64,000 nt of DNA from Mesorhizobium sp. (GTDB taxonomy: Bacteria; Pseudomonadota; Alphaproteobacteria; Rhizobiales; Rhizobiaceae), in NCBI GenBank assembly GCA_004020545.1, contig SAQE01000005.1:1-64000 (forward strand), read 5' to 3'. Positions within the stretch are counted from its first letter, which is position 1. Every line of letters starts with the position of its first letter. The translations under genes and the position numbers were made by a program. The notes below the pieces were generated by a model. It saw nothing but the letters and a program-made list of their open reading frames with translations. It was not told the origin of the DNA and did no database searches. This document shows, piece after piece, positions 12,714 through 14,015 of the stretch.

Positions 12714-13804
12714 TCAAGCGGCGCCTTGCCTGGTTGCCAGCATTTCGCGCTTCACGGACCGGCGCCACTCGACGGCGCCGGCAAGGCCGTGCAGAACCGT
12801 CTCGGTGGTCGCCCAGTCGATGCAGCCGTCGGTGATGCTCTGGCCGTAGACGAGCGGCTTTCCAGGTACGACGTCCTGGCGGCCGGCGACGAGATTGCTC
12901 TCGATCATGACGCCGATGATGCGCTCGTCGCCCGCCGCCACCTGCCTCGCCACATCGTGCGCGACTTTCGGCTGGTTCTCCGGCTTCTTGCCGCTGTTGG
13001 CGTGGCTGACATCGATCATCAGCCGCGGCGCGACGCCGATGCGGCCGAGTTCCGCAGCGGCGGCGTCGACACTTGCCCCATCATAGTTGGGCACAACGCC
13101 GCCGCGCAGGATGACGTGACAGTCCTCGTTGCCGGTGGTCGCCGCAATGGCGCTGCGGCCGCCCTTGGTCACCGCCATGAAATGATGCGGCTGGGCGGCC
13201 GATTTCACCGCCTCGGCGGCTATCCTGAGATTGCCGTCGGTGCCGTTCTTGAAACCGACCGGGCAGGAGAGGCCCGACGCCAGCTCGCGATGGATCTGGC
13301 TTTCGGTCGTGCGCGCGCCGATGGCGCCCCAGGCAACGAGGTCGGCGATGTATTGCGGCGTCGTCATATCGAGGAACTCGGTCGCCGCCGGCAGGCCGAG
13401 ATTGTTGACGGCCGACAGCACGTTGCGCGCCATCCTCAACCCTTGTCGATGTTGAAGCTGCCGTCGAGGTCGGGATCGTTGATCAGGCCCTTCCAGCCGA
13501 CCGTGGTGCGCGGCTTCTCAAAATAGACGCGCATGACGATCTCGAGCCGGTCGGCCAGGGCCTCGCGCAGCGCCGCCAGACGGCTGGCGTAGTCCACGGC
13601 GGCGACCGGGTCATGGATGGAACAAGGGCCGACGATGACAACAAGTCGATCGTCGGCCCCCGTCAGGATGGAGTGGATGGCGTTGCGCGAAGCGGCAACG
13701 GTGCGCGTCGCCGTCAGTGAGCGCGGGATCTCGCGCATCACCTCGTCCGGCGTGCTCAGGACTTTGAGTTCCTTGACCCGAAGGTCGTCTGTGGTGGTCA
13801 ACAC
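12714..13804 (-). pseudogene. aroG: Class I DAHP synthase (AroG type), interrupted by a -1 frameshift
   Basis: 3-deoxy-D-arabino-heptulosonate-7-phosphate synthase, first enzyme of the shikimate pathway. The N-terminal part (13804-13436, 122 aa; VIVGPCSIHDP, RVYFEKPRTTVGWKGLINDP) ends in N-I-D-K-G then TGA. The rest (from 13439 down to 12714, about 241 aa; L-R-M-A-R-N, ARTTESQIHRELASGLS, GFKNGTDGN) lies in the -1 frame. Joining them through AAG-GGG-TTG restores N-I-D-K-G-L-R-M-A-R and a full-length enzyme of about 363 residues; one G missing from a G run explains it. Both halves look intact otherwise, so sequencing error, recent mutation or recoding are all open. Confidence 0.85.
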
Positions 13805-13843
13805 GGCTTCTGCTCCTGGTTAGGAGACCTGCCGGCTGAAACG

Positions 13844-13870
13844 AAAAAGCCGCCAGGTCTGGCGGCTTTT
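13844..13870 (-). terminator. Attenuator terminator before the DAHP synthase gene
   Basis: On the minus-strand RNA, GCCGCCAG (13866-13859) pairs with CTGGCGGC (13856-13849) and is followed at once by a run of T (13848-13844). It lies 40 bases upstream of the aroG start and about 22 bases after the leader stop codon, the classic position of an attenuator. The stem also reads as a terminator on the + strand. Confidence 0.75.
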
Positions 13871-13891
13871 CGGATTTAGATGCTGCAATCT

Positions 13892-13978
13892 TCAGATCGA
13901 GCGCAATCCTCCCGCCGCCAGCGAGCTGTCGTAGCTAAAGTACCAAAACGAGGCGGTCAGGTGGATCATGGCGCTCAT
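13892..13978 (-). CDS. Aromatic-amino-acid leader peptide of the DAHP synthase attenuator
   Basis: 28-codon frame, ATG 13978-13976 to TGA 13894-13892, containing the run Phe-Trp-Tyr-Phe-Ser-Tyr at residues 11-16 (codons TTT TGG TAC TTT AGC TAC). Such clustering of all three aromatic residues before an aromatic-pathway gene is the hallmark of ribosome-mediated attenuation. Codons for S-L-A-A include CTGGCGGC (13921-13914), identical to the downstream arm of the terminator, so it can sequester the shared GCCGCCAG arm as an antiterminator. No clear ribosome binding site is visible, the main weakness. An alternative start is the ATG at 13969. Confidence 0.7.
   Translation of the reverse strand: MSAMIHLTASFWYFSYDSSLAAGGLRSI
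13914..13921 (-). promoter_or_regulatory. Antiterminator arm within the leader
   Basis: Minus-strand CTGGCGGC, an exact copy of the terminator 3' arm at 13856-13849. It can pair fully with GCCGCCAG at 13866-13859, which would prevent the terminator stem. It overlaps the last third of the leader frame, so a ribosome reaching the leader stop codon would mask it, whereas one stalled on the aromatic codons would leave it free. Confidence 0.65.
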
Positions 13979-14015
13979 ATAGTCGATCAGAGGGTGCTTG
14001 TCACGTGCGGCGATT

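Follow-up and report, generated by a model that had tools for sequence, protein, structure and literature searches.

The synthesis of every aromatic amino acid begins with DAHP synthase, and a small frame with a run of aromatic codons ahead of the class I DAHP synthase gene aroG raises the question of whether transcription of this gene in Mesorhizobium sp. is controlled by an attenuator that reads the supply of phenylalanine, tryptophan, and tyrosine. We analyzed this locus within a window of 64,000 nucleotides, which is the whole stretch of DNA considered here. A preliminary description of the window had proposed such an attenuator, and the layout that it gave was confirmed at the sequence level. 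On the minus strand, the elements follow one another in the order GTGACA, CTATATG, ATG 13969, a 25-codon frame, a hairpin with TTTTT, AGGAG (13817-13813), and the GTG start codon of aroG at 13804. Three 8-base segments were found exactly as described: CTGGCGGC at 13921-13914, GCCGCCAG at 13866-13859, and CTGGCGGC again at 13856-13849; the first of them is segment 2 in our numbering, and the second and third are segments 3 and 4. The terminator with its T run (13848-13844) indeed sits 40 bases ahead of GTG 13804; its hairpin (13871-13844) has a predicted energy of -17.2 kcal/mol. The CCGCC motif (13956-13952) lies just ahead of the aromatic codons and, in the predicted fold, pairs with GGCGG of the 13921-13914 segment. 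The coordinates of all features are collected in Table 1.

Table 1. Features of the aroG leader region in the window and the class II DAHP synthase gene of the same genome.
Feature	Position	Strand	Remarks
-35-like GTGACA	13999..14004	(-)	xGACA begins 34-35 nt upstream of the leader ATG in 97/108 alphaproteobacterial leaders
-10-like CTATAT(G), 6-7 nt upstream of the leader ATG	13976..13982	(-)	TATATG 17 nt after xGACA in 63/108
Leader peptide ORF, 25 codons, MIHLTASFWYFSYDSSLAAGGLRSI, probably leaderless	13892..13969, stop 13894-13892	(-)	SD-like motif in 1/108
Segment 1, GAUCCACCUGACCGCC	13952..13967	(-)	Pairs with 13919-13905 of segment 2 to give the pre-emptor hairpin (predicted fold)
Predicted stall codons UUU UGG UAC UUU (Phe-Trp-Tyr-Phe)	13937..13948	(-)	Truncated-transcript folds
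Segment 2, CUGGCGGC (13921-13914) and GGAUU (13909-13905)	13905..13921	(-)	Partner is segment 1 or segment 3
Segment 3, AAUCC (13876-13872) and GCCGCCAG (13866-13859)	13859..13876	(-)	Forms the 3' side of the antiterminator or the 5' side of the terminator
Intrinsic terminator hairpin, 11-12 predicted pairs	13844..13871	(-)	Segment 4, CUGGCGGC (13856-13849); T run 13848-13844
aroG, class I DAHP synthase, two frames (13804-13436 and 13439-12714)	12714..13804	(-)	Pfam DAHP_synth_1 on both pieces; NCBIfam aroFGH
Class II DAHP synthase, own genome (L192)	G000:C88:56514-57824		

The leader had been described as a frame of 28 codons. This frame is present (13978-13892, MSAMIHLTASFWYFSYDSSLAAGGLRSI), but the conserved start codon is probably ATG 13969, which gives 25 codons, and ATG 13978 overlaps the conserved -10-like box. 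GTGACA is named -35-like here from its presumed resemblance to the consensus. SD-like motifs, scarce in alphaproteobacterial leaders, were found in none of the 42 other leaders; together with the conserved promoter-like spacing, this scarcity suggests that transcription starts at the A of ATG 13969 or close by and that the leader message is probably leaderless.

Of the 61 genus genomes searched, 57 had a match to AroG, and 56 upstream regions, that of the window included, were read; the region from genome G043 was left out because its AroG match was split over two contigs. The leader with its aromatic run was present in all 56 regions, and the run was also conserved in 38/38 other loci of the order sample. 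Loss of the aromatic codons or of the alternative pairing, looked for in close relatives, was not seen. The leader ORF measured 72 nt in 31 loci, 75 nt in 5, and 78 nt in 20, thus differing in length by whole codons only; unlike it, the distance from the stop codon to GCCGCC varied by single bases (24 nt in 10 loci, 25 nt in 43, and 26 nt in 3). The Trp codon UGG was retained in 55/56 genus leaders, with an Arg codon in its place in L023. Four genus loci (L011, L027, L029, and L039) have approximately 54-62 extra bases between the terminator and aroG, which appear partly palindromic by eye.

For comparison with controls, we took the last 260 nt of 170 unique upstream regions (from 182), bearing in mind that the criteria were set after the data had been seen and that related sequences are not independent. 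A leader was recognized in 147 of these regions, a leader with a terminator in 145, and a leader with a terminator and antiterminator complementarity in 142; the corresponding numbers were 1, 1, and 0 for the reverse complements of the 170 regions and 12, 0, and 0 for 850 dinucleotide shuffles. Locus L129, regions with fewer than four aromatic residues in seven, and regions devoid of a terminator or of the CCGC[CT] motif were left out of the 2:3 scoring and of the folds described below. The competition of the first and third 8-base segments for the second, as originally proposed, is supported by the complementarity of segments 2 and 3: in 95 distinct leaders, its score was 20.43, exceeding all 200 of 200 permutations, in which segment 3 was swapped among loci and the pairing re-optimised each time (mean 19.30, maximum 19.86), as well as all 50 of 50 shuffles of the leader part (maximum 14.40). 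In the 27 leaders with an unusual segment 3, this excess was weak (21/500 as high). The 1:2 score was 16.62 versus the largest shuffled mean of 15.75.

In alignment A2, consisting of 37 sequences picked by hand, 87.3% of the antiterminator cells were paired (4/500 shuffles as high) and the covariation score was reached by 10/500 shuffles; pairs changed on both sides were not in excess of shuffles (169/500 as high). The terminator had 98.1% of the cells paired (0/500 as high), and its covariation score was reached by 0/500 shuffles but equaled by a +3 slide. The 1:2 structure had 69.6% of the cells paired (2/500 as high), and its pairs changed on both sides were again not in excess of shuffles (73/500 as high). 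When 135 distinct leaders were folded, the antiterminator pairing formed in 134 and the terminator in 130. G+C-rich hairpins, however, form easily in such DNA, and the 2:3 pairing also formed in 171/405 shuffled controls, so the fold count by itself is weak evidence and would agree with an ordinary terminator that happens to lie close to some small frame containing aromatic codons. Such a coincidence is extremely improbable because leader, terminator, and antiterminator complementarity came together in none of the shuffles or reverse strands.

From the sequence elements, their conservation, codon-sized length changes, complementarity beyond controls, and predicted folds, we conclude that the aroG leader is very probably a ribosome-mediated transcription attenuator sensing Phe, Trp, and Tyr. 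We infer its start point, translation, stalling, termination, and response to each amino acid as follows. RNA polymerase would start at or beside the A of ATG 13969, and the 25-codon peptide would be translated. A shortage of charged tRNA for any one of Phe, Trp, and Tyr would stall the ribosome in UUU UGG UAC UUU, where it would mask segment 1; segment 2 would then pair with the emerging segment 3, no terminator would form, and aroG would be transcribed. With all three amino acids plentiful, the ribosome would move on, the 1:2 and 3:4 pairings would form, and transcription would end at the T run.

Predicted folds of a transcript ending just after segment 3 agree with this scheme: when the A site of the ribosome was placed at Phe8, Trp9, Tyr10, or Phe11, the antiterminator was the best fold, with GGAUU:AAUCC as its inner stem. 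Placing the A site at Tyr13 instead gave 1:2 as the best fold of the truncated transcript, leaving segment 3 free for the terminator; the Tyr13 position is also absent from the shorter genus leaders. Consequently, the working sensor is probably Phe-Trp-Tyr-Phe, with no part for the later Tyr codon. The earlier suggestion that all three aromatic amino acids are sensed at once is therefore upheld as far as codons and predicted folds go, with the exception of this last Tyr codon, which is predicted not to be competent. The full-length RNA with no ribosome was predicted to fold into 1:2 and the terminator. Two results speak against a simple reading of the folds: the truncated RNA kept the 2:3 fold both when free of ribosomes and when one was placed at the stop codon, and the terminator was part of the best fold when the full-length RNA carried a ribosome at Phe8 to Phe11. 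Because of these folds, the model depends on the order of folding and synthesis and not on minimum energy. Classical attenuators likewise decide by the order of synthesis.

The predicted leaderless small mRNA, extending from an AUG start to a terminator, has the same layout as rnTrpL of Sinorhizobium meliloti, a rhizobial attenuator whose transcription is reported to begin with the AUG of the leader ORF trpL (PMC10117765). The aroG leader may share this leaderless layout, as its promoter spacing suggests; trpL, unlike the 25-codon aroG leader, encodes a 14-residue peptide and controls trpE. The conserved unit might accordingly be chiefly a terminated small RNA or peptide acting elsewhere, like rnTrpL/peTrpL, with attenuation being secondary. 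The near-invariance of the C-terminal half of the leader peptide across the genus would fit such a role, but this stretch overlaps the pairing segments and the element precedes aroG in every genus locus read. Moreover, when the rest of the window's genome was searched at the DNA level for a second copy of the leader, only short and partial matches came up. We consider a primarily trans-acting role quite improbable and attenuation of aroG the preferred reading.

The gene downstream was correctly identified as a class I DAHP synthase, but in this assembly a one-base frameshift near 13439 (within 13436-13445) divides it into a frame of 122 aa and a second frame. Of the other 55 genus loci, 54 had an uninterrupted aroG encoding 362-364 aa; in the remaining one, L056, it was cut by the contig end. 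The frameshift may reflect either real decay or an assembly error in this draft of 188 contigs. A class II DAHP synthase was encoded in the same genome and in eight other genomes checked, so the loss of aroG could be tolerated. Four of the 61 genus genomes (G006, G013, G024, and G051; 3.3-4.6 Mb) had no match to the N-terminal part of class I AroG, and a class II enzyme was present in each of them. We failed to find an aromatic leader with a terminator in the 400 nt upstream of the class II gene of the window's genome, nor was one found at any of the nine class II loci examined, this one included; the tenth locus, L194, a C-terminal fragment, was left out. Loci L189, L190, L193, and L195 gave weak matches to the leader search rule, none with a T run behind it, and L187 had a terminator-like hairpin and no aromatic frame.

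The sensing of several amino acids at once has a precedent in ilvL of Escherichia coli. Attenuation by competing hairpins is classical in E. coli pheL and trpL (PMC11802643); unlike these three systems, the attenuator proposed here would act on DAHP synthase itself and read the aromatic trio. In Corynebacterium glutamicum, a leader with Phe-Tyr-Phe, aroR, precedes the DAHP synthase operon of aroF, with readthrough under Phe limitation (Neshat et al. 2014, as related in passages of PMC11802643). The class of mechanism is therefore textbook, and a leader peptide with an aromatic run ahead of DAHP synthase is already on record in Corynebacterium; compared by description, that system is actinobacterial with a reported run devoid of Trp, whereas the leader considered here carries Phe-Trp-Tyr-Phe in Proteobacteria. 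The uORFC-13-1 motif ahead of aroF in Acholeplasma combines a uORF bearing one or more Phe codons with a terminator; in the available passages of PMC8632094, it differs from the aroG leader in being listed for Acholeplasma and environmental sequences only and in having an RBS. Candidate RNA-level control of proteobacterial DAHP synthase genes is likewise represented by the RNA motifs predicted before aroF and aroH in Shewanella, and an attenuator was once proposed for E. coli aroF; compared by description, the Shewanella motifs differ in being listed as a Tyr-tRNA attenuator by E. coli analogy (PMC2659441).

No description of this proteobacterial aroG leader was found among the matches listed in open full texts, a scope beyond which lie the older surveys where an earlier prediction would be most likely (Vitreschak 2004; Panina 2001). 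Neither in the window nor in 17 related loci did any Rfam family attain its gathering score, and the leader may thus go unannotated in many genomes. Phe_leader (RF01859) matched 13840-13908 with 23.8 bits against a gathering score of 55, and RNAI gave 31.7 bits against 47; both matches overlap the terminator, and neither was taken as membership.

The distribution of class I DAHP synthase was patchy: it was found in 10/199 genomes of the family (5/109 genera), 39/297 of the order, and 8/289 of the class, each tally counting the window's own genome and those for the family and order also further members of the genus. The leader was present in 7/7 family loci from other genera and in 38/38 order loci other than the window, these sets overlapping, as well as in 5/7 class-sample loci other than the window. 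In the class sample, no leader was seen in the nearest 300 nt at L197, and at L198 the contig starts only within the terminator. Among the best 80 of 588 loci from a genome scan, which were named, 79 were readable, and 59 of these were flagged with a leader and 20 not; four of those flagged (L129, L144, L160, and L176) are doubtful, and L100 is counted through its duplicate L044. Locus L136 was dropped as too short, and loci L064 and L067 as copies of the window. Carriers of the leader include Bradyrhizobium, Devosia, Caulobacter, Rhizobium tropici (L146, below the rule of four aromatic residues in seven), Burkholderiaceae, Oxalobacteraceae, and xanthomonads; in Methylotenera, Chitinimonas, and Enterovibrio, no leader was found within about 330 nt.

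Judged by these upstream regions, the same leader design appears to recur in many other proteobacteria. A broader view, which we hold to be evenly balanced between right and wrong, is that one ancient attenuator has accompanied class I DAHP synthase through the Alpha-, Beta-, and Gammaproteobacteria, integrating the supply of Phe, Tyr, and Trp in a single run of codons and performing through RNA the task for which E. coli uses three feedback-inhibited isozymes and two repressors; the terminated leaderless RNA and its peptide may also act in trans. A conserved leader responsive to all three end products would show how entry flux can be matched to demand in bacteria by means of RNA, and would offer a ready sensor of aromatic starvation.

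The codons themselves bear on whether all three amino acids are read. In the genus leaders, 75/83 Phe codons were UUU, versus 16/274 in the aroG coding sequences of 54 loci. Where Phe follows Trp-Tyr (13945-13934 in the window, and relatives), all 52 distinct leaders have UUU for this Phe, and 36 of the 52 have AGC as the following codon, which is more constraint at the nucleotide level than the peptide by itself would require. Such overuse of UUU could mean that the attenuator answers in practice to one amino acid, mainly Phe via this rare codon, with the Trp and Tyr codons being passengers. The absence of Trp from 14/37 non-alphaproteobacterial leaders points the same way. On the other hand, in a tally of leaders from which L129 and L158 are absent, Trp was kept near the run in 105/107 of the alphaproteobacterial ones, and both Phe and Tyr in 107/107; in addition, the antiterminator predicted in the truncated transcript was the same with the ribosome on Trp9 or Tyr10. 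A response to Phe alone is thus unlikely, and joint sensing of Phe, Trp, and Tyr is preferred for the window. Outside the Alphaproteobacteria, Trp lay near the run in 22 of the 37 leaders, those of Oxalobacteraceae being mostly devoid of it there; this unequal retention suggests that the amino acids read by the leader may differ between lineages.
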